Below, one piece after another: positions 1 to 62,284 of a stretch of 64,000 nt of DNA. This DNA comes from Siphonodentalium dalli. Lineage: Eukaryota; Mollusca; Scaphopoda; Gadilida; Siphonodentaliidae. A model generated the notes under the pieces. That model searched no databases and had not been told where the DNA came from. It was given only the letters and a program-made list of their open reading frames with translations. Location of the stretch: NCBI GenBank assembly GCA_032622095.1, contig CP136064.1, positions 180,764,011 to 180,828,010 on the forward strand, written 5' to 3'. Each line of letters starts with the position of its first letter. Positions within the stretch are counted from its first letter, which is position 1. Position numbers and translations under genes: made by a program.

Positions 1-561
1 TGAAACTCCCTGTGGCTGTGTCCACTGATTCCACCCCCGTGGAATCTGGTAAGTATGAGAAGCTGTCAGTGTCCACATCCGTGGAAGATGCTCGCGATAC
101 CTGAGCTTCTGGTGGCGACTCAACCACATGACGTAAGGTCGGTTGGGCTTGCTGAACCGATGGAAGTCACCTCACGTGTTGTAGAGCAGAGGATGGTCGT
201 CACTGAAACTATAAGTGAGACACGGTTTGGTGGTGGGTTTGATTTCACAGAGCTGGCTGCGTGTGGGAATGACGATTACTCATTCCTGATGCAGCTGGTT
301 GATAAATCTTTTAATGAAGTACCTATTATAGACCCAACCCCAGTTGAAATGGACCGAGTTACCGAACTGGAAGCTAAGGTCGTGGTACAGTCTATCGAGA
401 TCAGTTTCCTCAGGGTGCATGTGGACGATTTAACAAAGATGATGAAGGCCACGGAAGATGCGCAAAAGAAGAAGTTGCATATGCATAAGAGAATAAGACT
501 GACCATGAAGGGTAGAAATCGAACAAAACCAAGTTTTGAGCCTAAGGCTCACATTCAATAA
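1..561 (+). CDS. 3' end of an unrecognised gene (hypothetical protein)
   Basis: The plus strand is open in one frame from base 4 to a TAA at 559-561. Within it, from 55, lies a 168-residue frame with balanced composition. It has an acidic, hydrophobic middle and a C-terminal stretch (about residues 100-155) of regularly spaced Leu/Val/Ile with many charged residues, suggesting a short coiled coil followed by a Lys/Arg-rich tail. I do not recognise the family. In a second frame, bases 3-48 also look coding and end at a strong donor-like GTAAGTAT at 49, so the true exon structure at this edge is unclear: the first exon may end at 48, or there may be a frame change near base 90. AT-rich sequence with no further coding signal follows the stop, consistent with a terminal exon. 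The window edge cuts the gene. Confidence 0.4.
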
Positions 562-3500
562 CTTGTTGAAATTTGATATTTGTTTGTTTGATATTTGATA
601 AATGTTAGCTAGTTATACCGTTTGAAATTGTATTGTCTTCTTGTATGCACGTTCATATATCAAATTATAAAAGTTTGTGAGGACACAAATATATTTGTTT
701 GAGGGTAGTGAAAGGTCCGGCCTTTACTGGTCATACAGTTTATATTTACAAATATCACTTCGTAAAATTTCGGGTGCTATCTTGCATCATAACTTTTATA
801 TTTCAAATAGCAATCTGCTATTACTTGGTACTTCTATTCATTATTATAGTAACATATATGTAGCTAAATATCAACTTCTAGTAATACGTAGTTTATCTTT
901 TATTAGTTTAAATTAATCCGTAAATTTGCGTAGTTTAGTTATCTTCATGGGCGCCGCCATATTGGTTACGTCACGGGGGATAACTCTTGTCATAAAGTTT
1001 ATGGCTTTCCGTAGTCTGATTCAGTAATTTGTCCCTTCACAAACATAAACAGCTTTATTTTGCGTGCAAATGGGGTCAGGCTTTGAATATGTGAAATATA
1101 AACATTGGAGAAATATATCTAATGTGTTTTTACTTATTCAAGGTATGGAACTATTTTGCTCTGCAAGAAATAAGCTGCAGAAACGGATTGATTGGTTCAT
1201 ATTTATATTTCTCTGCGAGACATCGTTTGCATAAGCATTCTGGTTGGTCTGCATATTTCTCTATTATTTTCAAGCTATTTCGTTGGTTTGCAGACTTGTT
1301 GCAGAGTTTTCTAGTATATAAGCTTCAACAAAATTAAAATTAATGTTCTGCATCAGTTTAGATAACTCAATTGTTTAGAATTCTGGTGTGGATCACCCTT
1401 CTGTGCTAGGTATAGATTTTTGAACTTATACATTTATTCACAGTGGTATTTTACTAAGTTTTATCTTTTAAATTGTACTTAGTTGTGTGAATGCTAGCAG
1501 TAGCTATGACACAACCTGCAGAACAATGTAAATATTGTCATCTTAATTATTTATCTAGATGTGATAATGCCAGAAGTGGCTAGTTCTCATCCACAAAAAT
1601 AGGAGATTTACAGGCTGTGTCCGAAATGGCTCACTCATTACTACCAGGTTTATGCCAAAATTATGTACAGACAAAATGTGTGATGGAGTGTCAGAAGTGA
1701 CCAAGCACTACAATTGGAGGGCTGGCTGTTGAAAATTGTATGTGTTCATTATGCCAGAAAGGCTAAGACATGTAAAATCCACAAGTATCAACATGGTAGC
1801 TCTATTCCCGGCAGAATGTCAGAAGTGACTACGTCGGAGAAGACCGGGCCAGGAAGAGAGCATATTAGAGGTAAAATAAACTGTGTCCCATTCCAGAAGG
1901 TAATTTAGTACAAGTGACAATATTTACACCTTGTAGAAGCCAGTATACTGAAGGACTTGGAATTATTCTCTCTATTTAAAATTTATAAAGTAATTTATAT
2001 AGTACGGTAAAATAATATCTGATGCAGAACCCTGGAATGACATAGTCTCCTGAAAGCAAGTATATATTATTCCAGTATTAGCATTTATTTAAATTCAGTT
2101 GTGCAAAGTAAAAAAAATAACATTATTTAGTAGCTAAAAAATTTAAGTTACATGTTCCAAGGAAGTGTTTTTTGATTATGTGATGGAGTAGGCGAGCGAA
2201 GGCCGTTGAAACTTCACAGTACACAAAAACCATTTTATTGGAATTTACAAAGTTATAACTTTTTTATAAAGTTTTTTTCACTTCAGAAAAACAATTCAGA
2301 AATTATCTGCAAGTTTATCGCAGACATTCCTAGTGTGTCTAAGTCAAGTATATCTGCAATTCTAGTGCAGATTATTTTTATTTAACTTTACTAGTTCTAT
2401 ATGCAGTTAATTAAAATTAAAGTTTATCGCATACTTTTCCTGTGTGTCACACAAAAGTAGTTGCAGGCCAGTTAGATGTTACGTTGAAAGTTCATGTTCA
2501 TTACACAATTATTTCACATATGACGTGAGATTACTTTGGTGTTGGGCGGGCTAATTTCACATTTATACTCACATGGGGACTTCTTTGTTCAGTAATAAGA
2601 ACAAGTCAGGTTGTATTATTATTAGTCTACTCTTAAAGTAAAAAATATTTATACTACTTAGTAAAACTTTTGGTAGTTTATATGAGCTACTATTCAAAGC
2701 GAATTTGTTTTATTAGTAAATTCTTTCTGGTGGTATTTTAATACATGTGTATATAATCCATAAAGCACCGGTGTTCGTTCATGTTTCGACTGTAGTGGAC
2801 CTCAGTCTTCATTACTAAGTGTCTCAGTCATGAGGGACCCTTAGTGTCAGCATTCGTAAGTCTCACAATTGTGTTCAAGGCAATTACGCTATTAAAAAGC
2901 GACCTGCACAAGAGCGTAATAGGTTTTTATTAGACATATCGCAAATATGTTCTCTGATTCTATCAGCATTTCATGTCCGACTATTATTAAAGTTATCATA
3001 CCACTTAGAAATTATTGAAATATATGTTTTATGTGGCCAAAGTTTTGTATCAATGTGTTTTGTGTATCATGTATATGATTCGTAATATTTCATCGTTTCA
3101 AATCATAAATGGTTATAAAAATCATTTTTTCCAGTTTCCATTGTTTATGTGCAAATAGTTAAATTCTATTTGTTATGCTTTTCTGCATATTAGTCTACTA
3201 TTTCTGCATGTCATTCAAATTTAAATAAGTCAAATAATTTTTCACATAAATCTCTACTTAATTGGAATAATTTTAGGTTTTCTAAAACTTTGTCAAATAA
3301 AAATTAATGTTTCAAGTCACTTTAAAGATTTTATTTAACTTCATTTAAATTATTCATAAAACGTTCATCTTTCATCTGTCACTTCATAAAAATGTGATAA
3401 ATAGTCATTCCATTCAGATCATTCAACTTGCAAAATGTTCAATCTTATTTTCATTTTCTTATACAATTACTTAACATTCCGTCCATACAAAGTTATGTCT

Positions 3501-3962
3501 GTCAAAATATTATCTATAGTTTATGTGCTAAATAAATCATTAATTTAATTTATTTTCATCATTGGGATCACGTATCCTGTTACTCACCCATCAGCTGTTG
3601 TAGGTCCAGCTAAACAATACCTACTGGTGTCAGATATTTTATTGTTACATTTTAAAAGTTACATCCACTCGGTTATTTCGGACTGTAACTAGCTGGTGAT
3701 ATATGGGAATGCATGTAGTTTTCTCTTATTGGTGGATCAGGTGGGGAGTGGTCGCAGATTAACCCATTTTGGGGAATTTTTTTACTTATTCGTAACCGTC
3801 GATTCTCTGAGAGGTAGGAACTGCATGTATTTGTATATACCACTTGTGTGTTACAGACACTTGCAAGTTGTAACAATGCAAGTTGCGATTTGTAAGTTTT
3901 GCCGAAGGTGAGTTTATTTATAATTTGAAAACAAACGAATTCAAACAGTTATGTAATTATAA
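562..3962. other. intergenic stretch, no gene seen
   Basis: About 3.4 kb of AT-rich sequence with stops in all frames and no domain-like translation. It lies between the 3' end of the plus-strand gene at the window start and the 3' end of the minus-strand P4HA-like gene. I see no terminal repeats with matching target duplications here. The small frames at 677, 1122, 1714 and 3673-3911 look like chance. Confidence 0.5.
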
Positions 3963-4338
3963 ATCACGGTGGGGAATCGCGTGGATTCGAGTTGATGAGT
4001 ATCACATATTCAAAAAATTTCATACAAGCTGATACCTCTTTGTGTCCAAACTCGCAATCGTTTGCTCTAACATTCTGACCAAAGTTGTCAGCCGAAGGAT
4101 TCTCCTAGATGTATACCGGTATGTACTTGTGTATTCCACGAACCTCCGACTGGAAACTTGGTCAGAATTCATGTTATAGAAAACTACTGAGTATTTCCGA
4201 ACAAATAAGGTATCAACTTGTTTTAAAAATAAACTAGCAGTCAAAATGTTTTATGTGTTGTGTCAGTTTCTCATATGTCATGTGTTTTGAATGCGTGTTA
4301 CTCACCAACCTCGAAACCACGTGATTCCCCACCGTGAT
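3963..4338. mobile_element. short inverted-repeat element (MITE-like), ATCACGGTGGGGAATC termini
   Basis: The ends are inverted copies of about 45 bp beginning ATCACGGTGGGGAATC, with a few mismatches between arms. The 376-bp interior has no coding capacity. The flanks are AT-rich, so the target duplication cannot be fixed. It lies past the recognised 3' end of the P4HA-like gene. A frame inside it (minus strand, about 4020-4244) superficially resembles an oxygenase strand, but because it sits between the terminal repeats it is not accepted as an exon. Confidence 0.7.
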
Positions 4339-4384
4339 AAATGCTTGTTTTAGTATACGAAATCGGTTATCGGTGCAGACGCCT

Positions 4385-4510
4385 GACATTATGTTACTAA
4401 AAGTCTGCCGCCCATTAACGATTTGTTTTCAGTTCATTCTAATTTACATTGGACATTAAACGAGTATTCTAACAGAAATTGCGGCAGCCGTAAACAACTC
4501 AACAATCTGG
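4385..4510. repeat. diverged partial copy of the interior of the 14257-14579 element
   Basis: The stretch matches 14375-14470 over about 100 bases: both share 'TTGTTTTCAGTTCATT', then 'ACATTGG' or 'TCATTGG', then 'TCTAACAGAAAT'. The terminal repeats of that element are not found here, so this is a fragment or a relative. Confidence 0.5.
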
Positions 4511-5028
4511 GGTACAACAGAAACTTCTTTCAGTATTGGTATTTACGTCACAAGATACGATCTGATATACATGTACCGGGCATCGAATCAACGGTGTTTG
4601 TTTGTTGTATGCTTGTTTTTAGATCCTTCTCGGACATCATCAATTCGAGTTAGGTGCAAATGTCACCATAGAAACTATCATAAACCTTTCTAGCGGGATA
4701 CCCTCAATTGGCAGATATGCACGTATCGCCAGTAACCAATGAAACGGCGCGTACTATAGACCACTGTCGTTAGAGAGATCTTCATGAAAGTTCTCATGGA
4801 AACAATCCGCATGTCAGACCAGTGGTCAGCGTATTCCGTGTGCCGCCCGCACTGTGGTATCTTATCAGTGTTTAGTTCGAAGTTGACCGTGTGTTGATCT
4901 TCATTTTTTTTTGCATTTGTGTCAATGGCATATATAAATATATATGGCGCTGATAAAAAAGCACATTATCACTTTTGTTTCGCGTACAAATGTCATATAC
5001 AATGAACCAATCCCAGCCGCCAGCATTT

Positions 5029-5115
5029 TTAATAAATTATCAACGAAATTGAAGGACATTCTCTGTTAAATCGGAGAGAATTGACATAACCAGACATAAC
5101 CACAGTGCTATAATA
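5029..5115 (-). CDS. candidate terminal exon of the P4HA-like gene (weak)
   Basis: After exon 10 ends in phase 0, an AG at 5116-5117 opens a 28-codon phase-0 frame ending in TAA at 5029-5031. It keeps a hydrophobic Val-Val pair near the start and a Cys-Pro 19 residues later, roughly where P4HA enzymes have AVFWYN and then HAACP. If this is the exon, the second metal-ligand His is also gone and the protein ends early, at about 505 residues. The acceptor has no good pyrimidine tract and the likeness is low, so a random frame is a real alternative. Confidence 0.25.
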   Translation of the reverse strand, partial: YYSTVVMSGYVNSLRFNRECPSISLIIY

Positions 5116-5493
5116 CTGCACTATACATCTGGTTGTCTGAAGTTTATCTATTCAGTTTATCTAATCACCTGCTAGACAAACATTAATTTAGAGGCGGCGT
5201 GGTTAACGCCTGAATGTAGATCACTCTATTGAGCGAGCCATCGGCCCTGTCTTATCATGTAAAAGCCAATCACACAAATGTGATTAGAAGTGTCTGATAT
5301 ATATTTGTTTTTGAGCCTATGCCATGCAAATGTGTTCGTGTAATAATGTTGACAAAGAACGACTCCAATCGTTGAAGTTCCAAATTATCAACCACATCTT
5401 GACAATAATGGCGTTCTGAAAACGAAATAATGAAATGAAAAGATAATCCAACTCTAGACAGAAGCACATAATTAATGTGTTTCAGACGTTTAC

Positions 5494-5562
5494 CTTTTGG
5501 AATGGTATCCTGGTTCTTGCGAGTGGGAATGCAATGCCTCCTCCGAGACCAGTGTTGCCTAA
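5494..5562 (-). CDS. P4HA-like exon 10: GGxxxFP strand
   Basis: A 23-codon phase-0 exon, acceptor CGTAATTTCAG, donor GTAAACGT. GLGGGIAFPLARTRIPFQK aligns with SAGGATVFPEVGASVWPKK of human P4HA1. The next exon should carry the second iron His and the 2-oxoglutarate-binding Lys, and it is not confidently found. Confidence 0.82.
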
Positions 5563-8500
5563 CTGAAATTACGAGAACGGCTTTAGAGAACTGGTGAACT
5601 GATCTAATGTAGATATAGTAGACACGTACATTTTCATACATCTTTATTGAAGTGTTGAAGCGCCAAGTGACTGAATTCGGCAATCGTGTTGCACATTATA
5701 TATACACAGCGTAATAATACTCTTAGAGGCTCAATTATATAGTTTAGCCAGAATGTTGTGGCTTTACATTTTGGCTTTATTTGTCCACATTTCACATATA
5801 ATGCCGGCGATGTTCTTGGCGAGTGCAAAATACATTTCAGCACAATGCTCCCAAACTATTTCCCACTGTTAACAAAGTGACGTGTTGTGTCTATTGTGAA
5901 ATTTCCCAGTTATTTCGATTCATATCTCGTCGTCCATGTGTGTACATTTGCTGGCAAGTCACGGACGTCATAATACTATTCAAAATTCCTTACGCCGAAC
6001 GTATACAAAATATGAGCTGGACATTTTAGGTACTCACGAAAATAGCAGCAGATGCTATTCTTTCATTCTCCCTCAAACCGAGATTATAATGCTTTTGGAG
6101 CCTGTTCGTTTTCTTTTTGACATCGACCTGAGATACATACAAGATAAGAGTTGTGAAATATTCCTGAGTGTTTAAAGGCCCACTTAATTTTCGAACCCCC
6201 AGATCACATTATATAAAATATATGCCATATTATAAACCATTTGAAAGAGGAAGCTCCAAGCATTGTATTTTCAACTTATTCGATGTAATCAACTGAACAT
6301 GTTGTTTTTGTTGAGATATCGACGCCTGTTCTAAGCTAAAGGGGAATAACTCTATATATTTAGATATGGAGTTATCCCCTTCCATTGAAAATAAATTCTT
6401 GGAGCCATAACGGTGGAATGATTTTATTATTTAAGCTATATTCTATTACTCTATTGGCACCTTCTGAGACACAGACGTTCCAAATGGGGATGAATTATAG
6501 TATTTTTTAATCATATTTTATGCCATAGATTGTTATTAAAATTGTATATCAAGGCGCTATGAAAAAATAATCGGTGACTCGAAAATTAAGTGGGCCTTTA
6601 ACCCCGTTTCTGTTTACTAAATATACTCGTTGGCGAGTACTTCTCATAGGAAATGTTCATATCATATGTCCAACAAACAGCCATACTATATGTATATTAT
6701 CAGAAAATGTCCCGAAAATAAATAGGAATCCTACTGCACTTAAGTATTATTTGTTGATTTGTCTGTCGTCTGCTTATATTTCCAGAACATTCGTCCATGC
6801 AAATGGATGCTTTTATAACTGATGGGGGAATCCATTAAGTGAAGAAACATATGCCCAGCTGGGGTACACGCCACGCTGGTCAGAGCATTAAAGGCCCCAT
6901 TTCGTGTCATAATGAGTATCTTACACTGTCGGAATCGTTACCCGACATGAACTCCACACGGTCGTGTTGCTGAAGGCCCTCAGTATATGTGTGTTGAAGG
7001 CTACCAAATGTTAGCCGCAGAGTGAACTTTGAACTCGACCCCATGGAGCGAAATATGTGAATTGGTCAAGTTTATATTGGTGCGTTATCTATATTACCCG
7101 GATCTGCGAAACAATGCTTGATTAGGGTACCCAACAATGCCATATGTCAAAGTGGTATACGCGTACACGTGTTGAATTCGAAAATATTTGATTCGAAGAA
7201 ATGAAAGCCAACCGAAACAGAAAACACGTTAGTAACCAAAATAGTATACAAATATAAGTGTGGCTCACACATGCATGACACCATATGTAAAATCGGCTTT
7301 GGTGAATATTCGCCAATTCATATTGGCGTTCAATTAGATGGCCAGTCGGTATCGGAAAATGTCCAATTTCTGCCAATAACACCTATTAGCAAATTAGTAA
7401 TAAATTGAAATAAACCCAAACAATGCACACTTGTGAACCATATCTGTAGAATGTTTGTTAGAAGTGATGACGTATTGGTTTTTGAAAAGTCCCCAGTAAC
7501 GTATTATATTAATATCGAGCTCGTTTTATAACTCGTTTTTAACGATACGACCCTGTGGCAAAACGCATGTTATACCACCAACATATAGCTGATGTGGAAC
7601 TGTGCGTGTGTGATGTGGCTTGATATACGCTGAGTCAAATGTTAAAACCCTCATTGAACTAAAGTCCTGGAGCAATATAAAAAATATTAGCATACAATGT
7701 GACCACAATTTACACTTTCATTCGATGACACAATGGAGTTACTACTCATGTAAATTGTCTTCAGGTTAACATTTAGTTTTAGAAAGAATTTATTCCATGA
7801 ATTGTACAACAATAATAAGTACATAAATAAGTATGATACATCATGAACCGGATTCGACATCATGCATGTTGGCTTATAATAATGTGAGTTTCCTGTACTG
7901 GTTTATGAGATGTAGAATAATAACATTGAGTCGAAAAGATTGTTTTGTCACTTGGAACTTTTTTCTTTCTTAACAAGTTAATATATGTAACGCCTCATGT
8001 TACTATTTTATTTTATGCAAATAATTATAATAACGAATTACATTCGAAAGAGTTTCATAGGACGGGTTGTTATTGTTGTTGCTGAAAACGTTGATGGTAA
8101 GAGATACAGCATCTATAAATATTCAGTTGTGCTTACCATGAAGTCCACCCTAGGACGAAATTGCCCTTGAAGCCCGACGTTGTTTATCTGTGAATAGAGA
8201 ATGTTGAAATGTAAAGTTAACCTGGTTCACTCTGTTTCGACGTTCATGCGAGGCTAACTAATTAATCAATATAATGGACAGACCTCAGATAGACAACCAC
8301 AATCGATATACCATGTTTTGTGTTATTGAGTAACACTATTTTGAGGAAACTCATTTTTTCGAATTCATGAGTTCAGTCATGGAAAACACAATTTTACACC
8401 ATAAGGCAATGCTACGCTCTCCGTTCGTGTGTTACACGCCTTATCGCGAACTAGTGGGGCCAAATTAATGTTGGCATATTCACTTTTTCGTGGAATAGCT

Positions 8501-11500
8501 TGTAGTAAAGTCCACATTATATTAAAGCATCAATATAAACTTTGATTTATCGCTTATGTTGTGACATTTCAGCTCTTAAATAAGGTCGAATAATACTTGA
8601 TATAATTATACACGTAGTGTATTTACCACGAACAGATTGAAACTAAATATATATACTTAAGAAATGAATGTAGTTTGCTGTCCACACTAAATGTGCTCCA
8701 ACTGCCATAACAATATACTAGTACCCTTCAATAAAATACACACATACACCATTCATTTCTTATATGTATATAACTCTTTCCTTGCTAATTTGTTTTCTTC
8801 TGAACTATATCTGCAGTTTGGATATTATACCATGCATCTGTGAATTCTCGATCAATTATTCTATGACTGCGCACTCAAATATACAACAAACCCAGTTATT
8901 ATATCTACCACAATTAGTCATATATGTCAACATGATATGACGGTTCGTGTTATGGCGTGTTTTATTGTGATACAAAACGCATGACCCAATTGGGAGTTGA
9001 CCAATCACGGAACAGGATTTAGTGTAACACACACGGGTTATGTAATATTACAGGAGGAATAAAATATATTCAAGAACTGTTCAATGAAGGGTCTGTTATC
9101 ATATGTCAGTTTATGGTACAGAAAACAAAATACTGTGCCTTTTGTAACCGGTTATTGTGGTTACAAATCATCTCCCGTGTTGTTAAATTCCACATATAAC
9201 ACACCTCCTCGTGTACTGCCCATTATCCCGACAGAAAAGTGAAATTTTATCCAGAATCTTGAAAGAATAACGGAAGTCACTTAAACAATGTTCATTGTTT
9301 TGAGTTACAACGTTACATTTCTTACTCGAGAGTTTTCCCAACAAGAATAAAATAAACTATTCACACGATTCTACAAACCAATGGTTACAAAGTTAAACTG
9401 TGAAGTCATTTAAAAATGCTCTGTGTTCTGAGTTATACAGTTCCATTTGCTATAACTGAGGAATCTTCCAACAAGTAAAATAATTTTGTCTCACGAATCT
9501 TCAAACTGCATGAGGGTTACAAAGTTACATTTCGAAATCATTTAAAACTATCCCGCGTTTTGACTTACAAAGGTATATTTGGCACATATATCTTTTATCC
9601 AAGAACTTTTCAAACGAATGAAAACCATGTACATTTGACAATCCATAGGCGTACGTGATCCGGTCTCACCTGATATGGCGTCTCTTGAACCGAAGCTCGA
9701 CTGATACCAAGCATGAAGGCAATTCTGTTATTCAGTTGTCCCCAAATATTGTCGTTAATGTACCTATACAAGAGAGAAATTAACAATGTACATTGCGTTT
9801 TTCCGATGAATTGCAATTGTTCTTTGTTCTGAGAATATTCGTCTGAGGATTCTAGCTCATTTTGGATTCAGCCATGCATTAAAGATGCCTTGTCAGATTT
9901 GACCCCAGATGATTTTGGTCTTGTTATTGTAATTGGAGGTCTGGAACTATGAAAACATCTTTAAATATCCGTTGATTCGTTTTTGTGTAGTTTTTATAGT
10001 ATAACGGACATTGTTATCGGAGTGATATATGTGTATTATACATGGGAGTAAAACGTAATATACTTTGCCATCCGACCGCATGGTTGTGAGGTTCTTGGGA
10101 AATGGTTTTAGTCAGATACATTTTCGACAAATATCAGGACGGAACCATACTCACCGTTCAGTTTTACTTGGTCCTTCCGGTTGGTGGGAATATCTTATTT
10201 CTTCTTCATGGAGCTGTAAATGGATAACTCTCATATACAGTATGGTTGGTAAGATATGTTCTAATGGGAACAGATTGCTAAATTTAACGGGAGACCTATC
10301 TATAGATCTATTATTGAGACAAATTCCTGCTTGAATAGACTCAATGCTTTATAAGCGAGTTCATGCAAAATAACCATTTTGTTTTAGAAAAGTCTGTAAA
10401 ACAACTATCAAGAAAAAGTACATGTAAAAATATATCGACTTTGTTCATTATTGTAACTCTCCAATAACGAGATTTCGCAGAATTAAACCACTGTTTAACC
10501 AATATTACAGTGGCAATACGATAAAAGTCCAATTAGATACCAAAGTCCAATCAAAACTTGATGGTAAACATTGGAAAGTTCAATTCTTTTAAAACTATTC
10601 TAAAAATGACTGGGAGATAGTGGCTAATAGCCAAGATTTGCGATATTTTAGGGAGGTGACAAAGACAAGCTTGGCTGTTTTGGTGATCGGTCATCGAAAT
10701 GATATAACTACTCAGTGTAATATGCTTTTTATCGACAATTTAACTTGGGTGATAAGGAATGAAAACTATTAATCGATTAATCGAAACAAGAATTGGATGC
10801 AACTTGTCTTAAATATGAGAAATCGGCAAAGATCAGCGTAGAAAAGCTACATTAAAGTGATGTGAAACACTCCGGTAGGGTGATCGACTAGAAATAGAGA
10901 ATAATCTTGTTCAAAGTAGTTCTTTTTAACAAATATAAAAACCAAATTGACAACACACACCGTCATTACTTGCGCCAGTCCATGCTGGACGCAAGTAATG
11001 TTTTCGGTTCGGATCTTTGTCTGTCTGTCCTTCCGCGAACATGTTACGTCATACCGGAAGTACATACTGTAAAAAAAATGAACACGCGCTAATATGAAAT
11101 GGTTGCATCAATTGTAATTTAAATCCACATATATACTTAATTTGCATTGTTATCTGGTTTTATTTTGGTAATAAATCGTTCATAAATGAACAATATTGAA
11201 AATTTTCAAAAAGTTCAAAATTTTCAAAAAGTTCAAAAACTTCAAAAATTTCAAAAACTTCAAAAATTTCAAAAACTTCAAAAATTTCAAAGATTTCAAA
11301 AAGTTCAAAAATTTCACAAATTTCACAAATTTCAAAAAACTTAATAATTTTTATAGGCGCCAAATTACCATCCAATACGTATACCCTTATACACTGCGGG
11401 TCAGTCCTAGTAACGCGCACGTCAACGCGTTTGAAGTTTTTAATGCGAATGTCACTTTAACATTATCCCACAGTGAGTGCCTAGTGTCACTTTAACATTC

Positions 11501-14500
11501 ATCCATAGTGAGTGCCTTGTGTCACTTTAACAATCATCCCCCGTGATTATTTTTCATAATAATAAATAGTGTTTATAAAGTGTCTGGAAAATCAACACTT
11601 TGTGTGTTTATTGTAAAACGCTATGACATGTTTTAATATAAACACTAGTGTTTATTCATGTCCCTTTAATATTCAAATACTGAGTGCATTTTGTCCCTTT
11701 AATATTCAGGGCGGAAGCTGTCCATCGTTCATCTAGGTCATCACGTGATATACATGTAGATAATACATCGTTCACAAGGAGAGACTTCGTTCAGCGAGCG
11801 CAGTGTGTCACTTTAACATTCAAGAATGAAGCTATCCCCATCAAGGTCCTCACGTAATATACATGTAGTCATATCATCAAAACAGGGATATTATGTCCGT
11901 ACACACAACTATTTCAGCGATGGATGAACAGAGATTTGATATCTAGATTTTTGTTATCGATCTCTCAAACGAGGGGCCAGCACCCGTACGTGGTTCAAAC
12001 TGTTGTTGGCAAGACACCACACGACATGCCAAATGTGTGATGGGCGCAAGTATAGGCAGCTCCAGTGGGTGCATTCTAGTTCTTATATATAATTCAATGC
12101 AGTGACCCTCGATGGCGAAATCGTTTTCGTTAGTTTATCGCCGAAATATGCGTCCCGAATCGAGTAGTAAATATTTATAATTGAGCGTAGCTCAGACGAT
12201 GTTTTCCACGGTCGATTTCTTTCATATTTTCGGCGATGTTAGTAGAATGTTATATTCCTCCTATTTGCATAGCGCCTGAATACTAACTTATCAGCTTCAC
12301 GCACCCGAACAAGTACATAATGTGTCTTTAATCATTAACCACGCACTAACAGAAGCCAGCTTAATCTGCGTGATCCAAAACTACCGATTAGTATACGAAA
12401 AGCGATCATATTTTTCAAAGCCACAACCCTTGGCTTTTAGTCACTTCCCTCGACGAAATGGCCAAGACACTCCCGTGCATTTGGTCAGACGGATCCGAGT
12501 CTGGTCACCGGACTGACTCAAACGACTTTTACTGAGACGATGTCACTCACCGAGAAATTCTTGTACAATGAGATTACCCTGTTTATTTCTTGCGAGCTCA
12601 CAATGTCATGATACACAACTATCCTCGGCTTTAGGTTGTACTCTTCCTCTTTGAATGTGATGTACGGGACAGTGGTTCTCTTCGAGTTGCATTTAAGAAC
12701 AGAAAGCTCTGTCGGAGACTGAAACGGAACGACAAAGACGATAAACGCTCTTTATTTTTACCATATTAGGAATAGCCTAACAAGGAACGCTCTTCGTTCT
12801 TCCAGGCTGAAGAATAATTAGGAACCAAATTTTCTAAATTGAATGATTTAAACAAGCCTTACCGTTGGATAGATAACATCAGGATTATAGTATTTCACAG
12901 AGTGATCGACCCATTTGATCCCCGCTTAGCCGTTGTTGTAACAAACATAGCATAATTTCATCAATCAGACTGCCACGTTCGACGCTTTATCGATTTCTTT
13001 ACTAAATAGAGGATCTCACATGAGTTTCTATTTTATACGAAATTTATCAACCGAGTTCACTAAATTCGATTTGAGCCGAGGTTTACCGAGGCTCAAATAG
13101 AATTTAGTGGACGAGGTTATTAAATTACGTATAAAATAGAACGAGTTTGAGATACCTTTTATCACATGATCAAATAAACCCGAAGCAACGCGCAATATTC
13201 ATCGAAAACAACAATCATAAACAACAGCGATCGCAAGTTATTTGAAGAACGCCGTGACGTCATCGCACGCGCTGATATTAAACGTGTCTATTACCGATAA
13301 TTATGAAACTGCTTTTATGGCCAAATTATGTGATAAAATGATATATAGGATAGATAATTTTTTATTTACTTATTTACAATATACCGGTACATATGAATAG
13401 TATAGTACGAAACAACTAAAGGTACTCAATCCGATCAGACGCTCCTAAATTACTAGTTCTTTGGCTTCGGGGGTAAACAATATTTGATTCAAGTCAAGAA
13501 ACCCACCCATCAAAGCTCAGAGTGATCAGATATCGATTTTTGAAGTTTGTTATTTCTCGAGATGTGTAATAATATCTAGCCCAGAAACACGTGGTCAGAC
13601 GGAGGGTCTCGGACAAAATTGCGGATGAAGATGGATAACACTAAAATCAAGTGGTAAATTTACGGTCAAATTTCTCGATACTTTAGTGATATTAGGGTCA
13701 TATTTTGCTGAACAAAATGTTGATAAATAACAAGTTTTGGGAAATTTGATACCATGCATAGTTGACAGTGGTTAGCATTATTTTGTTGCAATAAATCGAT
13801 TCTGATAACTAAAGCGTATTTTGAAGAAATGTTGTTGTTGTTTCTTGGTGGTATGGGGACCGTCTGGTCGTATTGAGTACCTTGAAATCGTCATGTATGT
13901 TGTCAGTAATTAGGGGCGGTATAGTTATAAATAAAGAGTTAATATATGAAGCTGGAAATATGTACAGCCGTATCCACCCAAACCGAGAGGCTATTATTTA
14001 AAATCGTGAAAATAAAATGATTTTATTGACCACCTAATACAATGGATTCTCTCACTCAGTTATTTAAAACAGTATAAATCTGAATGGTATAAATCTGAAT
14101 GGTTTATTATCTGTTTCGAGCGATTATCAGAAAATAAAAAGCAGACGAAGTGTAGAATGATTTATATTATATGGTGGGAAATGTTCAAAATATAAGTTCA
14201 ACAATCGATCATGAACTAGTCATCAAATCATATTTAGTAAAGAAAGGGTTACTATGGCTGAAGGGGTCACTCTCACCAAAAAAGTGCTGAAGGGTACACA
14301 GGGTTTGAAAATGTGCTGAAGGGTACACTGGGTTTGTAATCGGCACAAACACCGTTACTTAAAATGTGTTTCTGAAAGTCTGGCGCCCTTTAGCAGTTTG
14401 TTTTCAGTTCATTTTAATGTTCATTGGAACATAAAACAATTATTCTCTAACAGAAATCATGGCAGATACGAAAACTAAATGTCATTTAGAACACATTTCA

Positions 14501-17500
14501 AAACCTGTGTACCCTTCAGCACATTTTAAAAACCTGTGTACCCTTCAGAACTTTTTTTGGTGAGAGTGACACCTTCAGCGTTACTATGACTAGTTTTACT
14601 CGACATATCCTTTCGTTACATTTAAGTTCGGTTTCAAGTTCAATGTGATGACACATTTGACTTTGATGCAGATAGATCTTTAGTTATCTCACAACGACTA
14701 CTACAGGGGTCATAACTATATAATGATGCATGTATACATAGTCCAACTATGTCATTTCCAATGAGTGGAGTTGGCTATTTTGAGTATCTACAACAGGTTG
14801 AACTGGGAATATGTATTAAAAACTTCACAAGCAAATAGCTTAATTCTCCATTAATAGTTATCAACGTTAAGCATGACAGGATTACGTCACTTTAACCAAT
14901 TGAGTATATTCAGAATGGATTCCTACATGCAATGTAGCCGTTTGTTAAACTTACTATCTGAACAATTCTTAATGGAACTATTCGTCAATGAGTTTTTAGT
15001 AAAGAAAGTGATAATTTGAGGTTGAAAGGTATGCACAGCGGTAACCCAATCCGGGAAGCTATTATTTAGAAACGTGGGGGAAAAAATGATTGACCACCTA
15101 ATACACACCTTCAAATCTCGCCGACAAATTTCTTCGAAACGCTTCCTGATTATAATTTCAGATTTATTATCTCCGAGGCCCTCGTGTTGTTTCCGTTTCG
15201 ATTTTCTGAAGAAAGCGAGATCGCGTATCGCCCCTTGGTGATCAGGATCTACAAAGAATTCACCATGGAAATATATATCAAGTTGCGACTTGATTATAGT
15301 TCAAATATAACCTCGATATGCAAATTATTTACAGCAATGCCGAACTTAGAATAAAATATCTGAAACCCTGCTATACTACCAGAGACCCAAATCTAGCCGC
15401 TCTATTTAACTCCCGAAACCATATGTCAGTTAAAAACTTGTCAGTATTTATTAAGAAGGTCCTTGAAATATTTAGGTCCCCCTGAGGCGTACTACCGACA
15501 GCCTGTCGAACTGAAACAGTGTAACTAACGAATATCGACCACATATATATATATACATATGTTATAGCATGTTTCGCCTTAATTGACGACTTTGCAATAA
15601 ACAATCAAACCACCCCATTCCTATCTGTATGTCATGCATATACATGTATACCTGTAATGACCATATATTGTATTTACGTATATACATCTGTGATGTCTAT
15701 TATTGACAAACAGAATAAACTGAAATGAATTGATAACATCATGGTTAAAGACATATTATGGACTTGTTCGAGTTCGTGAAACTGATAAGTTAGTATTCAG
15801 ACGTTATGCCAACCTGGAGAATGTAGCATTCTACTAACATCGCCGAAATTTTCAAAGAAATCGACCATACCACTAAATAGAAAACATTGTCAAAACTAGG
15901 CTCAATTGTAAATATTTACATCTGGATTCGGGATGCAATAATCGGCGACAAACAAACGCAAATGATTTCACCATCCAGAGTCAGTGAATTTAATTAATAT
16001 ATCAGAATGACGGTGTGTGGTGGCAATTTGGATTAATATTCGTAACAAGAACAACTTTGAGCAAGATTTTTTTCCATTTCTATTGGATCACCCTACCGGA
16101 GTGTTTCACATCACTTTAAACGAGACGAGTTGTACACTATACTAACAAGAGAAAACTCATGCAGCATTAATATGCATAACGGAAATCTTTCCAAAACAAA
16201 AAAAACAAAAGAAAAAGTTTACTCTTGCGAGCTGATTATTGAAGGTTATGACATGTTCACCAACAAGTTACCAAGGCCCGGCATTGCCATATACACACAT
16301 ACAATGTCACCATTCTATAAAAGCGGTTCCCTGTGCATATATGATCAACTCAATAGTACGGAATTCTTTGAATCAGTGTGGTGTACGTGGAGAACAGGAA
16401 ATAACAAAGTTACTCTATTGGATATGTCTACAGAAGTCCATCATCAGAAAAGGAAAACAACAAAAGACTCAATATTATTATCAAGGTAACAGAAAAGGTG
16501 AATACACGACCATCTCATACAATTGGGAGATATCAATTATCCAACCATTGAGTGGGACACCTTCAAAGAGCAGACTAGAAATGACGAAGACCTATTTGTT
16601 AAATTGCAGAGAGACAAGTTTCTTATCCAACATATTGATCAACCAACTAGGTTCATTGAAAACAAAACAAAAACCCTCATGATATCTGATACAGAGGAAC
16701 TTATATACGAGGTATCACATAATTATAGTGCACCAATGGGGAAATCGTTCACTGTGTAATCATATCAACCATAAAAGCAAATGTCACTCCATGTTCCTCA
16801 TTTAACTCCAACAACCCGCCAAAACACAAAAATGCTATAAGACAATAGCAGATACAGATTGGAACTTCAAAACATTAGCACCCAAAACGGATGGAAAATA
16901 TTCTACGGAAAGAATGGAGGAACCTATCGATGAAAATGTTCCAACTAAACGAAAAATCGTGTTAACTTGGGGAACTAAAGATAAATATATGGACCAACAG
17001 AAAGGGGGAAAAAAGCTTTCAGAAGATATCGAAACAGCGAACGTAAGTGTGACAACGATTCGTATAATCTTCGAATACTTCGAAAATTCGAGTGACATCA
17101 GAAACAAGGGCAGTGAAAACAGAATTTGAGAGAAAGCTTGTAAAGCAAAACACATAAAGCAAAATCCATTATATGCTGGTTCGTGATAATTAAAATCCGA
17201 CCTATTACATGTATATACATGTGTGGGCAGCGGTAAGTCCTGCGTAGGGGACTGATCGAACTTAGTTCAGTCATGAACGTAGTGCGTATCCTTCTACGAA
17301 GCAGCAATCTGCGAAAGCGGTCATGTTGACCTAGATCGAACTATGCATGGAGCTTGCTAACAGGTATGCCATGCAAGTACTTTAGCAATGATCTGGTGCT
17401 TTTCAATATTTCGCTTAAAAGTGAAATAAACGCTCTTTATTCTGTCATATTAGGAATAGACAAACAAGGTACGCTCTTTTTTCATATCGAAGAAAGTTCG

Positions 17501-20500
17501 GAATTTCGATCAGTTGCCAGTTGGGATAGTCTTTCTGCGCATGACATAGTTTTTTTTTATCGACATATGTTGGTCTTTGGAACTGGACCTCGATGTAACA
17601 AAACGCGAGAATAATTTGGACCTTCAAACCGCCCAATGGCTTTAAATATACGGGCGGTGTTGGCGGTGGGTATGTTGTTTGTTAAAATATTCACCTCCGT
17701 CAAAAACCGCATTAAACAGAAGGAATAGTAAGATATAGACAGACTTTGTTCTTATGCCAATCAGAAATATGGCATATAAACAGTATGTTATTGTCAATTT
17801 GTCCCCTTTGTTATGTAAACAAAAACAAAAAACGTTACGTTTCCTGGCTTTTGTTTAGATCCGGATATGGTAAACATAAAGAGCGTTATTTGTCACTGTT
17901 TTCCTGATATGGAAATAATAAAGAGCGTTTATATAATTTTTGTGTGATTAACCAATAGAATTTCACTGTGTTATGTAACCAGAAGCACAACTTCTGTAAC
18001 ACAAGCAGGCCCTTGTTTACATACACCATCTTACGTCTTGGCGACAATGTACTATTTACGCGCTGATAATGATTGTCATATGAACAAAACTATATATATT
18101 TTAATATTCCTTCTGTTGATGGCGATTTGAACAAATATGAATATTTCTGCAACGAACGCCGCCCGTGCCGTTAAGGCTAGCTAATTCTAATGTAAATCAT
18201 CATTGTCGTCATTACGTTGTTAAGACATTACACATGAATAAGTTCCAATAAACTATTGTTTTGTTGGTTTCAAATGATATTTTTTGCATAATTATAAATG
18301 TCTTATCTTCGGTGAAATTATTCCATAATAATAGTGTTCTTCTATCATGCCTATGCTCTCATTCTCATTGCCTTGTTTTAAAATATACAAGTTAAGTTCT
18401 TCTTCAACACTTCATATTGTGAATGTCCCCTCGGGCATATGTGACCCGCCATATCAAATCCAGTCGGAAGTCGGGATTTTTTTTACCCTGTGCCAATGCA
18501 TTCTCTTATATATGCGAGTCGACCATAGGTCGCCTCGCATATATAAGAGAGAGCATTGGCTTAACAATTTTTTAATCATGTTTTTTAAATAAATGTTTCT
18601 TACAATTTTTAGGACATAAAATAAAAAAAACCATCCATTACCCTGCAGGGAGCCCCACACACATATAGAAGTAGGCCTATATAGAAGAGTGTCGTCTGCT
18701 CATGTTTGTCTGGGGCTCTGTATGGGTGAAATTATAAAATTGTTAAAGAATACAAGAAAAAATTATTAAAATTGTAAAATATTGTTAGGCCAATGCATTC
18801 TCTTATATATGCGAGGCGACCTATGGTCGACTCGCATATATAAGAGAATGCATTGGCACAGGGTAAAAAAAATCCCGACTTACGACTGGATTTGATATGG
18901 CGGACCCGTCACATATTACGGTTCGGCGGTATGTGGATGTATTTGCCTTGATGGCATCCTCTGTTCTCCGCGTCGGTTATATATTATAACAATTTACATA
19001 TCTACGCAACTATGAATGCTTACGGAAATTGAACTACGATTAAACATATACAGTGCTAGCATACTTTCTCCCGATTTTTGTTTTTGGGTGGGGGACTATT
19101 AAAATATCGGTTGTCCGTCGGGACGTCCGTGCCCAAAGCTTCCGGATGAGAATTTTTTATTTTGGGTTATCGGATCGAAACCAAATTTGGTATGTGAGTT
19201 TATCAGCTCAAACGTTCGAATATGGGTTCGGTCCGCCAATTTCTGCCGGAATTATGGCTTATTTTCGACTTATTATATGTCTGTCAGTGCGAAACGTTTC
19301 CGGATTATAACTTTATTTTTGGTCTATCGGATCGAAACCAATTTTGGTATGTGAGTTTATCAACTCAAACCACAGGTCAAGTTCGAATATGGGTTCGGTC
19401 CGCCCATTTTTGCCGGAGGTATGGCCCCTTTTCGACTTAATTGGAATCTGCCCGTCCGTCGTTCGGAAAGTTTCCGGATGATAAGTTTATTGTGGGTTAT
19501 CGGATCGAGACCAAATTTGGTATGTACATTTATGAGCTCAAAATAAGGTCCAGTTCCAATATTGGTCCGGTCCGCCCATTTTGCCGGAGTTATGGCCCCT
19601 TTTCGACTTAGAATATTGTCGTTTTTAGGTTTCCGGATTATAACTTTATATATATGTACCTTGTCTCAAATATTCTTCGATCACTTCGACAGCTTTCAGC
19701 GGTTGGTCCATCTAAGAAGAATTTTAAATTGCAAATTTATTATATAGATTAATGTATGTGACATTTGGCGACATATAATATCATACAAAACACGAATAAA
19801 ATGTGTCGTTGATTTGTGCTTCTGCTGATTTTCATCGAAATCAACAAATAATCAACAAATAAATAAGTAAAGTGAAAGAAAACTGTGTACGGATTTGGTT
19901 GCCAAAACAGTTCTTCCCCGGTGCCATCTGATTGATGTCCAGTAAAGCTGAATGGGGTCATTGCCATGCACCGCTGGTACCCAGCTAGACAATTTCGGTT
20001 TTATGATATAGAATTGTTCACAATTCTTGAGGTTATACGTAAACAAATACAAGATAATATTAGCCAGAAATATCGATTTTAAAGATGACCACCCATGCGC
20101 CTTGTCATCGGATGCAATGTTTACATAACAACCGTGGGCTCAAAACGCCGCGAAGGTCAAGTTGTGTACCCGAAACTACTTGTCCTTAAGTTGGGTAATT
20201 GTATGCATTCTCTAAATATCTCCATGAATAAAGAAGGAGGAAATAAAGAATATATATAGTGTTTTATAATAAACTAACCTCGAAGTGCACAGAAGCTATA
20301 GAACGATACACACTGGACAGTTTGACTTCACCTTTTCCCTTGCTATTTCCAAGAGAGGAAGCTAGATTGCTGAGCCATTCCAGGGCCTTCTCAAGCATTC
20401 CGTTTTCTCGCGCGACCGAAACTAAGTCCATCATGCCTCGTGGACTGATGGAGCGCCATAGTACACCATCGTCCAACTTCCGTCCGGGGCGTCTGCTGTT

Positions 20501-23500
20501 TGATTCTAGCGTAACTCCTGTGTCCATTTTGCCCACTGAGAGGCTAGTCACCGGCGTCTGATATATTCCTTGGATGTGCAGCAATGCTGAAGATGCAGTC
20601 GTGACGTCATCGTCACCGGGCCACCAATTTGTTGAAGAAGTGGCTTTGTTGATGATTCGATCTACGACTGAAATGGACATTTCTCGATGCAAATCTACTA
20701 CCACGTGGATAGTTATGGAATATATGCACCATTGGTAAATTTGTCATATTTAACTTCTAAAATATAGCATTTTTGCACATTTTCAGTGAAAAAATAACGG
20801 CACATATTCTTAACAGCGTCGGTTTTCCACAATAACATTATACATGTATAGCTAATTCAGAAAGAACCAACGATATCATAGCATTATATAGCTATACCAG
20901 TCGACCAGAGGGTCGTATTTTATTGCATATAACACCCTTGTGCAGTATTGCAGTATAATCATACTACTGACCACTATCTCCAACCCCACATGCCATAGGT
21001 ACATGTATAGTTGTCAGAGTGGCTTAAAGGTCAGACGCATGTTTTATAAAAAATTCCTGATACTTCAAAATGAGTTTTCTAAAAAATCAGTATGGAATTT
21101 CTTTTTAAATTAGGTACAAGCGATTGTTGTGTCACAATATTTAAGCACCATCAAAAGTTGAAAGTTATAACCCCATTTACTTTACTTTTATGGCATAAAA
21201 ACATTTAAAAATTAAAGTTTTCATGTACCACGAACTTCTGTAAAATAGGACTTGTGCTTACTGCAGTTATATAGATAACATGAGAGCGAACTTAATTTTA
21301 CTTGATTCAAGAATTTTCAAAATTATTTCATTAAGAAAGACAGCCACCCATAAATAATTTTCTATATTTAGAATGTTCGTGCGTTACTATGTTTCAGCGC
21401 AACATTTCAGACTACAAGTTATCAGGAATTCCTCGCAATATGTTTTCTGATTTGACTAGAGACATTTCGCAGCACAACTACGTTCTGGACGGTGTCAAAT
21501 AGGAGGATAAGTTATTTAAATAGAACATATTTTTTGAAAACGAAGACACCAAAGTGTGTTTGCTGAACGTCTTTCTGAAGTAGAACGCCTCTTTCTAAAA
21601 ACTCAACGACACACTCGATAAGCCTTCTTGTTTTAACAAAAATTTACTTGAAGCAAGAGACACATAACTTCAGTTATAGTCTGAATAAGGCAGTTCTATG
21701 TGGCTGTCGTGAACGCCATCTTTAATCTTGAGCTTTCTCCAAATCGGATTTCAGCGGATTTGGGATATTTTTTCCTCCGTTCCTGTCGCTCAAAATGACA
21801 CCAAAATCGCCCTGTTGCCAATTTCGTCTACGCGCTTCGCTCCATTGACCAGACTACCCCTTTACGGCCCCACCAAAATAGCCGGTAATTTAGGAGACAA
21901 TCTTGCTGAGATGATCGAAGTTCCGAACGACTCTTTCCGCGTGGAAAGACGTAAAAATTAGCTTGTTACCAAGTTCACCTCATAATCTAGTCCCAACGAA
22001 CAGACTATCGGCCAATTGATGGTAATTGCACGAGGCTTGATAAGTCCTGGCTATGTGATACAATAAACTATTTGACTGAGTGTCTGTATTAGATATGTAT
22101 CGAAGACCCCTGGTAGGTAATGCTTCTGTCGATTAATATTCATTATGTTTCGAATATTTTAGCTAACGAACAATATAGTCGTTACTGTTAACAGAGACCA
22201 GAATGTTTATTGTGTAATTTTGTCACAAACAAACGTTAATTAGGCTCATTATTGCTTATAACTATGTAATAATACAAGCAATCAATCTGTGACATTTGAC
22301 GTTCGGAGTATAGCTATGGGAACACCCTATTGATCTATATCGCTATATGGTATCGCCTGAATGTTATGTTCTAAAAAATAGAACAATAGACGGTCCGTTC
22401 CCACTTAATAATCTCATTTTATAATAAAATATTCGAATAAAATCAATATTAATTGATTGAAGCGTTTCCGGACATGGGTCTTCAATTCATATTTGTTATT
22501 TTATACCCACGAAACTATATCAAAATTGTTATATGAAAGAGATAATCCATCTTTAAAGACACGGTTGGCCTTGGCGGTGGATGTCCTGTGAAAATATCTC
22601 CACCTGTCAAAAACCGCCACAAACAGAAAGAACATCAAAATGTAGATAGTCTTTGTCCATATATAAATAAGAAATATCGCACAAACAGTATGTTATGGTC
22701 ATATGTTTGACCATTGTTATGTAAACAAAAGCATAAAAAGTTACTTTTCTGGTGTTTGTTTATATTATGATGGTAAACATAAAGAGCGTTCTTTGTTGGT
22801 GAATACCTGATATGGAACTAATAAAGAGCGTTCATGCAATTTGTGTGTGATTAGCCAGTAGCATTGTGCTGTCTTCTGTAACACAATCAGGCTCTTGCTT
22901 AGGTAAAATATAGTAGGTCTTTATGATAACATGCTTTTTACGCGATGGTCATGGTATATATGAACGGAACTGTATGCGTTTTAATGTTTTTCTGTTTACG
23001 TTGTTTGGAACAAATATGAATATTTTCGACAATTAAGGCCGCACGTGCCTTTAATCAGTCCGGAACACATGGCAAATCATATGAAAATCCACTTCATGAC
23101 CCAATTGTAGCCGAATGAAGTTTTTTGTAGACACCTAAGAAATTGAATCCCTATCCATTGTGGCGGTTAGACCACAGTTATAGAACGTGCGTACAATTTT
23201 ATGACGTAGTGCCATAAATGTAGTCGTAACTCTTTATCCCTGAATGCGAAACATCGCTTAAAGCAGTATTCATAGATCGCTTACCTCTTGATAACTCACA
23301 CGGTACACACTCCTTGCAGGTGACGTTTTTCGCCAGCTGACGCCAGGATTTTGCCGCAAACTTGATCGATTGATATGCATTGACGGGGTGGTCGATAAAG
23401 CGTTCCTCATCTCCTTTGATTTTCGAAACCAGACTGGTTGCCTCCTCGCTAAATCTGTGTGTAGTAATTTTAATTGTCCGGACATATTAGTGTATAAAAC

Positions 23501-28286: not shown

Positions 28287-28719
28287 CTTAACAAACTAAA
28301 TTCACAGAATGAAACAAAGAATGGCTACAGACATGTATATTGATATAGGTATGCCACGCAGCCGTTACAAAGTGCCACGGTTTAATTTTTGATTTGTCGA
28401 TTCTTAATTCTGTTTTCGATAAACATGCAGAGTTATCGATTCCGCTTGTGATTTCGTCCCGTATAAGTTGTAAGGCAACAGCTGAGCCATCGTCTGCTCA
28501 ATATTTTTACTATCGGCATAATCGGTATGTCCCGCAAGATTTCGATTAGGCCTGTATTTCCGTATCATTGGATGCATGTAATCCATGCCAATTCACGCCA
28601 TAATTGCTCTTATTATTTGCAGAAATTGGTCTCCGTGTCGATCATTATTTCCATAGTTTGATATCTTTGTTGTTTGGAACGTTTCCGTTGGTGCATGGGA
28701 CAATATATAACCACATTAA

Positions 28720-33529: not shown

Positions 33530-33574
<45 letters not shown>

Positions 33575-34073: not shown

Positions 34074-35257
34074 CAGGGATGTGGCTAGAGGGGGGGGGGG
34101 GGTGTGGGGGGGGGTGTCTCACCCCCCAGCAGAGAGCTATATTTTCAATAGTTGGAAATTTCATATCTGCCACAACGAAATTTTACACCAACAATAGGTT
34201 GAAAATGTTCTTGTAGTTTGATTATAAAACAATTTATTGGGGGAATTTATTGTTTTTCGACCAATATTTGCATATGTTCCTATTTTTGGTCAAAAATTTG
34301 GACAGAAATGGTCATCAGTTGGAAATTTTCCAACCTTAGGGGGGTGACAGGTTGGAAATTTCCAACACTTGGAAAGCTTGTGTCCTGGTCTCTCCCCCGT
34401 GGCCAGTCAAAAACTTCTAGTTAATTTAAGAAAACAATATTGTCATACAATTGGTCAACATTGTCATTGGAATTGTCATCAGTTTGAAAATTTCCAACCT
34501 AAGTGGGGGTGTAGGGTTTGAAATTTCGAACAGTAGGAAGGCTTGAGGCTAGTCTAGATGTTAGGATTTTGCGATTTTCTTGTTCAGATTTCAAAATTTT
34601 CGCACACCGGGCCGAACCATGGTCGGCCCGGTGTGTCATTGCCCCATTCACATGGCCAATACAAAACTGCTAATTAGTTTAGCAAAACAATATTTTACTA
34701 CATTTGGTCAAACTTGTAGACATAAATGGTCATCAGTTGAAGAATTTTCCAACCTGAGGGGGAGTATGAGGTTTGAAATTTCCAACACTAGGAAAGCTTC
34801 AGTTGAGGCCAGTCTAGATGCTAGGATTTGCGATTTTCTTGTATATATAATTTTCAAAATTTTCTCACACCGGGCAGAACAACCATGGTGGGCCCGGTCT
34901 CTTGTCCGTAGCCGTGTGTATTAAATATATCTTAATGTTCTCATACTGGGAAAATAGAAGCATGGCTTATGAATATATAGGAAATTAGGCCTGAGCATGA
35001 GGTACAAGGGGGGGGGGGTGGAAATATGCAAAAAGTTGTGTTGGTACGATTCCGACTCAAGGGGGGGGGGGGTGCAAATGGAATTATGCAAAAAGTTGTG
35101 TCGGTGTGATTCCGACTCAAGGGGGGGGGGGGTGCAAATGGAATTATGCAAAAAGTTGTGTTGGTATGATTGCGACTCAAGGGGGGGGGGGGTGCAGTTG
35201 GAAATTCCCAAGGTGGACACCCCCCCCCCCAGCGGAGACCCTCTAGCCACATCCCTG
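34074..35257. mobile_element. non-autonomous hAT-type element with 60-bp G-rich tandem units
   Basis: The inverted ends are CAGGGATGTGGCTAGAGG and CAGGGATGTGGCTAGAGGGT. ATTGTGGC is duplicated exactly on both sides (34066-34073 and 35258-35265). An 8-bp duplication and CAGGG ends are hAT hallmarks. Inside are 'TTGGAAATTTCCAAC' palindromic blocks and, at about 35017-35196, three units of exactly 60 bp each containing a run of about 12 G. No transposase remains. It lies in the intergenic space upstream of SMARCB1. Confidence 0.92.

Positions 35258-62245: not shown

Positions 62246-62284
<39 letters not shown>

Follow-up and report, generated by a model that had tools for sequence, protein, structure and literature searches.

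A collagen P4H alpha-subunit homologue with Arg in place of the iron-binding His in Siphonodentalium dalli

The minus strand of the window considered here (the whole stretch of DNA that was analysed, 64,000 nucleotides of Siphonodentalium dalli contig CP136064.1) carries a gene that, judged from its sequence, is a homologue of the collagen P4H alpha subunit (P4HA) by descent and, by the catalytic features tested, is not an active one. The reading we favour, with moderate confidence, is that the gene is a maintained animal P4HA paralogue, divergent and still read as protein, which is unable to hydroxylate proline and perhaps acts as a non-catalytic partner binding PDI or alpha subunits. The exons are listed in Table 1.

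Table 1. Exons of the P4HA-like gene. Exons 1 to 9, with the model version of exon 7, make up the nine-exon model.
Feature	Position	Strand	Phase	Encoded part	Basis
Exon 1	28063..28286	minus	2 out	ATG; hydrophobic N-terminus resembling a signal peptide, MNIPNKISFMTIFLIVMIGHILTNASA; first part of the P4HA N domain	by eye
Exon 2	23285..23454	minus	2 in, 1 out	N-domain core, contains DEERFIDHPVNAYQSIK	P4Ha_N E=7.5e-5, ORF alone
Exon 3	20279..20667	minus	1 in, 0 out	rest of the N domain; TPR-like peptide-binding domain, first half	P4Ha_N E=0.0026, ORF alone
Exon 4 (tentative)	19660..19711	minus	0 in, 1 out	17-codon TPR helix MDQPLKAVEVIEEYLRQ	phase, splice sites, length
Exon 5	15109..15248	minus	1 in, 0 out	DPDHQGAIRDLAFF, TPR end and linker, Cys aligned to P4HA1 Cys276	
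Exon 6	12551..12718	minus	0 in, 0 out	Cys aligned to P4HA1 Cys293 (PDI-facing), catalytic-domain start FKEEEYNLKPRIVVYHDIVSSQEI	
Exon 7 (model version)	10155..10213	minus	0 in, 2 out	LHEEEIRYSHQPEGPSKTER, at the place of P4HA RATV...SKSAW	splice sites and phase
Exon 7 (alternative)	10375..10490	minus	0 in, 2 out	WFNSAKSRYWRVTIMNK...FTDFSKTK; SKTKW at the exon 8 junction (SKSAW in P4HA)	
Exon 8	9670..9763	minus	2 in, 0 out	YINDNIWGQLNNRIAFMLGISRASVQETPYQ	by eye; strong splice sites
Exon 9 (active-site block)	8137..8187 (51 nt)	minus	0 in, 0 out	INNVGLQGQFRPRVDFM; His of HxD is Arg (AGG)	
Exon 10 (candidate)	5494..5562	minus	0 in, 0 out	23 codons, LGNTGLGGGIAFPLARTRIPFQK	best-spliced phase-0 candidate in 8136..1

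The active-site block is encoded by exon 9, which was numbered 8 in the preliminary description of this DNA and takes its new number from the present model. Its codons, ATA AAC AAC GTC GGG CTT CAA GGG CAA TTT CGT CCT AGG GTG GAC TTC ATG, yield INNVGLQGQFRPRVDFM, which aligns without gaps to the P4HA active-site block, HxD becoming RVD and NYG becoming NVG, exactly as first described. The register is the same against P4HA2, whose catalytic domain (PDB 7zsc, 'vanygvggqyephfdf') also pairs ungapped with the exon. The HxD iron-ligand feature of active collagen P4H is absent, its His being replaced by Arg, while the Asp of HxD and the surrounding N-G--GQF-P--D pattern are kept. Ranked among every minus-strand AG and GT in 1..28300, the acceptor ttctctattcacag lies at the 98.0 percentile and the donor CATG/gtaagca at the 99.4 percentile; these percentiles, like those given below, come from our own splice matrix, its numbers being set by hand.

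When the six frames are scanned without gaps against a small P4HA profile built of four working catalytic-domain sequences, exon 9 is the second-best segment of the window, behind exon 6. On the active-site slice of the profile it scores 45.75 and ranks top among the six frames, the best unrelated segment having 32.75. In 100 simulated 64-kb windows (order-2 Markov) the mean maximum is 32.8 (sd 2.75), the highest value is 43.25, and none reaches 45.75. An intact HxD on another exon nearby, or a sequencing error at the His codon, had been raised as ways to dispose of the Arg. No second active-site block stands out in the six-frame scan of the window, the next-best segment scoring about as noise does. 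The codon AGG is three base changes away from both CAT and CAC, and hence a single-base sequencing error is ruled out as the source of the Arg; the Val of NVG, GTC, is two or three base changes from the Tyr codons. The plus-strand string NYQPHLD at 5383-5403 contains an HxD by chance: it scores 30, which is within noise, and lies on the strand opposite to the gene.

The iron ligands of human P4H are reported to be His412, Asp414 and His483. The variants H412E, H483E and D414A/G/H, and those with shuffled or re-ordered ligands, are described there as inactive, all reported ligand changes being inactive save Asp414 to Glu, and poly(proline) binding is retained in the Asp414 variants of Table 1 of the same paper (PMC2767507). 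By analogy with the inactive H412E and D414A enzymes, replacement of the iron-binding His is expected to eliminate hydroxylation here as well, which agrees with the pseudo-enzyme proposed initially.

The fate of the peptide groove is a separate matter. In P4HA1 the groove is reported to consist of Tyr158, the Asp192-Arg223 pair, Tyr193, Tyr196, Tyr199, Asn227, Tyr230, Phe231 and Tyr233; position 233 is Gln in P4HA2 (isoform II), and the changes of Tyr193, Tyr196 and Tyr230 to Ala raise the KM for the peptide substrate (PMC12433258). When mapped to the working P4HA1 sequence, Y158, D192, Y193, Y196, Y199, R223, N227, Y230, F231 and Y233 align to R, R, S, S, F, G, D, F, F and K, respectively, that is, nine of ten mapped positions differ, two of them conservatively (Y199F and Y230F). 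For the block that contains nine of these ten residues the ungapped BLOSUM62 score against the working P4HA1 sequence is 41, the maximum of 2000 shuffles being 9; the Tyr158 block scores 7 (shuffled mean -30, maximum 22), and the mapping of this residue is less secure. The groove residues thus are probably mostly lost by sequence, and since they are mostly changed, the initial suggestion that peptide binding is kept finds no support.

The situation is different for the cysteines of the region preceding the catalytic domain. Cys320 and Cys335 of the predicted protein align to Cys276 and Cys293 of the working P4HA1 sequence, which we equate with Cys294 and Cys311 of P4HA2 by sequence context. 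In the reported P4HA2-PDI structure Cys311 forms a disulphide to the a' domain of PDI, and Cys504, within the catalytic domain, is the partner of Cys294 (PMC9676403). Cys504, the partner of the Cys320 equivalent, and Cys529 would sit in the part of the protein that was not found. With the two upstream cysteines kept, the other function initially proposed, partner binding only, is possible.

Spread over 20 kb, the nine exons can be joined without a phase break into 449 codons with 0 stops, the intron lengths ranging from 391 to 4608 nt. The upstream exons had been described as open and in phase; this is true of the nine-exon model, with the caveat that open segments were sought and exons 4 and 7 were partly picked by phase. 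The splice sites had been called good, which fits all nine donors (95.1-99.9 percentile among the GTs of 1..28300), whereas the acceptors span 55.9-99.7 percentile: six of eight are at or above the 89th, and those of exons 2 and 3 are ordinary. The length of 477 residues given earlier is not reproduced, as the model yields 449 through exon 9 and 468 with the alternative exon 7, the candidate exon 10 adding 23. Similarity is clear and scored for exons 2, 3, 6 and 9 and modest for exon 5; exons 1 and 8 were recognised by eye, and exons 4 and 7 by phase and splice sites.

Exon 1 taken alone has no Pfam match, and its last residues fall within the joined P4Ha_N match described below. Its hydropathy peaks at 2.81 over residues 12-22 and is accompanied by an ASA site, so that the start looks signal-peptide-like by eye; both the start codon and the signal peptide are inferred. 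In exon 2, another donor (gtgagt) 15 nt upstream and in the same phase was set aside in favour of gtaagc. For exon 4, chance alone would supply 0.5 exons of like quality in its interval, and its similarity ranks outside the top eight candidates with a human target and second with an invented one; what keeps it in the model is its length of 17 residues, along with its splice sites and the TPR match of the joined protein. Exon 5 scores 46 against the working P4HA1 sequence, the best unrelated segment scoring 43. Exon 6 has the top profile score in the window, 54, and E=1e-4 in hmmsearch. Exon 8 alone is at noise level in hmmsearch and scores 25.5 on its slice; it aligns to 7zsc once joined. Apart from two chance matches of 13 and 24 nt, the window contains no further copy of any exon, nor of the 300-nt sequences flanking exons 7, 9 and 10.

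Two introns contain sequences of other kinds. In intron 4, a fragment resembling the endonuclease of LINE-type reverse transcriptases is present on the plus strand at 16502-16756 (Exo_endo_phos_2, E=3.8e-4, under the curated cut-off). In intron 6, a tandem array of the 9-base unit AAAAATTTC (11199-11338, 15.6 copies) has an extended open frame and does not represent an exon.

Membership in the P4HA family, claimed in the preliminary description, is borne out by the joined protein, in which P4Ha_N (PF08336), the N dimerisation domain, is present with 45.6 bits at a cut-off of 25.3 (E=7.9e-12). Two single segments give 23 and 18 bits; collinear pieces of a single domain would be expected to show such a rise once joined. 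TPR_14 covers residues 252-290, encoded by exon 4 and the start of exon 5, with E=2e-4 and 22.2 bits against a cut-off of 23.5, and thus lies partly on the tentative exon. The block alignment with a score of 41 given above bears on this middle domain too. Among PDB sequences the whole protein matches 4bta (the N region of P4HA1, E=1.1e-8) and 7zsc (the P4HA2 catalytic domain, E=0.0055), and it is identical to residues 1-440 of the working P4HA1 sequence in 111 of 372 aligned positions. At E up to 1, Pfam gives no catalytic-domain family for the whole protein or for the piece from exon 6 to exon 10, and the piece from exon 7 to exon 10 has no match in the PDB set. Pattern scans for relatives produced 20 matches in genome_contigs and three in viral_contigs, neither of them an animal collection, and none of these matches was confirmed.

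Two candidate versions compete for the place of exon 7. The model version (10213-10155) has no similarity of its own, but its splice sites are at the 93.4 and 99.8 percentile, and sites of this quality with phase 0-2 occur at 0 other places in 128 kb of strand. The splice sites of the alternative version (10490-10375) are ordinary, at the 77 and 71 percentile, but it resembles P4HA: SAKSRYWRVTI aligns under LAKPRLRRATI, and SKTKW under SKSAW. Joined to exon 8, it scores 35.5, compared with 25.5 for the model version; the former value is reached by 0.67% of 1500 control segments, with 0.3 expected in the interval. It ranks first among minus-strand candidates of phase 0-2 in the homology-guided searches. 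Its scores against the plus-strand controls are 24.25 versus 18.5 with the profile, 26 versus 21 and 33 versus 20 with working P4HA targets, and, below the control, 20 versus 23 with an invented target. The match of exons 6-9 to 7zsc has E=0.00012 with this version and E=0.00056 with the model one. They may be used alternatively, or one may be due to chance. Since both keep the phase, the odds of the main reading are the same with either.

Downstream of exon 9 the catalytic domain becomes difficult to follow. The second iron His, the 2OG-binding Lys and the C-terminal cysteines were not found on the minus strand in 8136..1, and neither was an exon matching P4HA 'ARKDE...GNRIATWLFY', for which the best minus-strand segment scores 23.5 and the plus-strand control 26.75. 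The absence of the second-His/Lys and GNRIATWLFY exons from the model makes the protein fold possibly unstable. The candidate exon 10 aligns gaplessly, 23 residues to 23, to MSDVSAGGATVFPEVGASVWPKK (a working sequence). One exon of its quality occurs by chance in 128 kb of strand, that is, 0.064 is expected in the interval. It is called a candidate because its similarity, 19.8, is below the plus-strand control (24.2), and its codon usage is equalled by 12.5% of open intronic segments. Should this candidate be genuine, the GNRIATWLFY exon either is skipped or escaped detection. The best match to the C-terminal slice, GPLQSKHERTPVLYG at 2801-2757 of the minus strand, was rejected: its score of 34.25 is reached by 11% of 44 control tiles, and there is a stop just upstream. 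The open segment containing these positions, 2801-2697 (minus strand, GPLQSKHERTPVLYGLYTH), bears a faint likeness to the C-terminal H-x-x-C-P-V-L-x-G of P4HA that is within chance. Past exon 10, 5493 nt of the window remain, and the missing exons may be located beyond its left edge, have diverged past recognition or have been lost.

Outside the gene, the plus strand has an intronless ORF at 39565-41934 composed of 611 codons, one stop and 178 further codons; by eye it is ZNF862-like and hAT-derived, and in Pfam it has a weak match to zf-C17orf113 only (E=0.0092). At the left edge of the window, an open plus-strand segment of 185 codons (4-558) is possibly the last exon of a neighbouring gene on that strand; it has no Pfam match. 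Other features are a pure TGT microsatellite at 33530-33574, a G-rich 60-base tandem repeat at 35019-35203 and a run of 38 G at 62246-62283. Rfam has no match in the window.

Whether the gene is maintained or decaying was assessed from the state of its exons. It is not a processed pseudogene, as introns are present. The earlier statement that the frame is kept holds in so far as the nine model exons have 0 stops, frameshifts and lost splice sites; however, exons were sought as open segments, hence openness is partly built in and the argument for maintenance is weakened. In a rough neutral simulation (300 runs each, indels set to 10% of substitutions, 34 splice bases, "intact" meaning open, spliced and indel-free) the coding sequence stays intact in 29% of runs at 0.005 substitutions per site, 12% at 0.01, 0.7% at 0.02, and in 0 of 300 at 0.03 and above. 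The GC content is 44.5% in exons versus 36.3% in introns. Codon usage is nearly uninformative, the true frame being top in six of nine exons, mostly by small margins. Since the codons at the His and Tyr positions are two to three changes from the usual ones, these residues most likely changed under a kept frame.

The last point bears on a different reading, a P4HA copy that died recently or was truncated at its C-terminus, in which the 3' part has been lost and the other exons are open because the decay is young. As the downstream catalytic half is unrecognisable in the remaining 8.1 kb, this is a serious rival, although we hold it to be somewhat unlikely. It would account for the failure to find the second His, the Lys and the C-terminal cysteines in 8136..1, for a C-terminal slice match that 11% of the control tiles reach, for the numerous conserved positions already gone, and also for the poor splice sites of the most P4HA-like exon 7. 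However, the nine exons are open with good donors, the rough simulation excludes a neutral age above approximately 0.02 substitutions per site, the changes in the His and Tyr codons point to a frame kept while they accumulated, and the absent exons may simply lie past the left edge of the window.

Mutually exclusive exons are frequent in animals, and exon 7 already has two candidates; thus the true active-site exon might be an alternative or undetected one, exon 9 being a rarely used or decayed duplicate. The exons of this gene have diverged enough for one of them to escape detection. Still, we consider such an arrangement very unlikely, as the next-best segment falls far short of exon 9 and is about the mean of the simulated maxima, the HxD string NYQPHLD is on the plus strand, and exon 9 itself has strong splice sites and a phase fitting exon 8. 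Least probable of all is a working 2-oxoglutarate oxygenase or another catalyst with an altered metal site. The retained Asp and its surroundings are compatible with it, and TauD and aspartyl hydroxylase are reported to tolerate a changed His; but the same source describes human P4H with H412E, H483E or re-ordered ligands as inactive (PMC2767507), and in the present gene NYG and the groove are changed too, and the second His and the Lys were not found.

If the gene is a maintained non-catalytic paralogue, its putative N-terminal signal peptide would direct the protein into the ER, where it would pair through the N domain, either as a homodimer or together with an active alpha subunit, and the retained cysteine region would dock on PDI. 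Its role would then be that of a non-catalytic subunit, stabilising, competing or PDI-recruiting, with a C-terminal end that is strongly diverged, off the window or missing. A more specific version, which is speculative and in our view unlikely, is a pseudo-subunit devoid of iron binding and of the polyproline groove that has kept the dimerisation domain and the PDI-docking cysteines, and forms mixed assemblies of alpha, pseudo-alpha and PDI or serves as a P4H-free adaptor of PDI, tuning collagen-type hydroxylation in a secretory tissue.

With human P4HA1/2 and fly PH4alphaEFB the gene shares the order of the N domain, a probable TPR-like middle domain, linker and catalytic domain, and also P4Ha_N, the HPVNA motif, the two aligned cysteines and the ungapped active-site block. 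Unlike them, it has HxD His changed to Arg, NYG to NVG and a mostly changed groove, and the search revealed no C-terminal part of its catalytic domain. Among the published parallels listed, the nearest is Drosophila CG34041, which belongs to a reported set of 26 P4H-alpha-related genes in the fly and retains the N domain but no catalytic domain; the authors of that study speculate that it binds other alpha subunits and describe its function as totally unknown (PMC12340787). Both are P4HA-family genes with no catalytic capacity and a retained N domain, but, as CG34041 is described in that paper, its entire catalytic domain is absent, whereas approximately half of it is present here with a broken iron site. 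More generally, the gene is similar to pseudoenzymes, that is, enzyme homologues that stay open without a catalytic residue; among fly genes encoding enzyme-like proteins, 8% are reportedly classed as such (PMC12869072). No P4HA paralogue or pseudoenzyme with a replaced HxD His is among the matches listed in our literature search, in which few subscription papers were represented. It is plausible that the finding is a new pseudoenzyme variant of a known family and no new kind of system.

P4HA proteins are studied as enzymes. A gene that has lost the iron site and the groove and yet remains readable would, if the favoured reading is true, separate the catalytic role of P4HA from its roles in dimerisation and in holding PDI, alongside CG34041.
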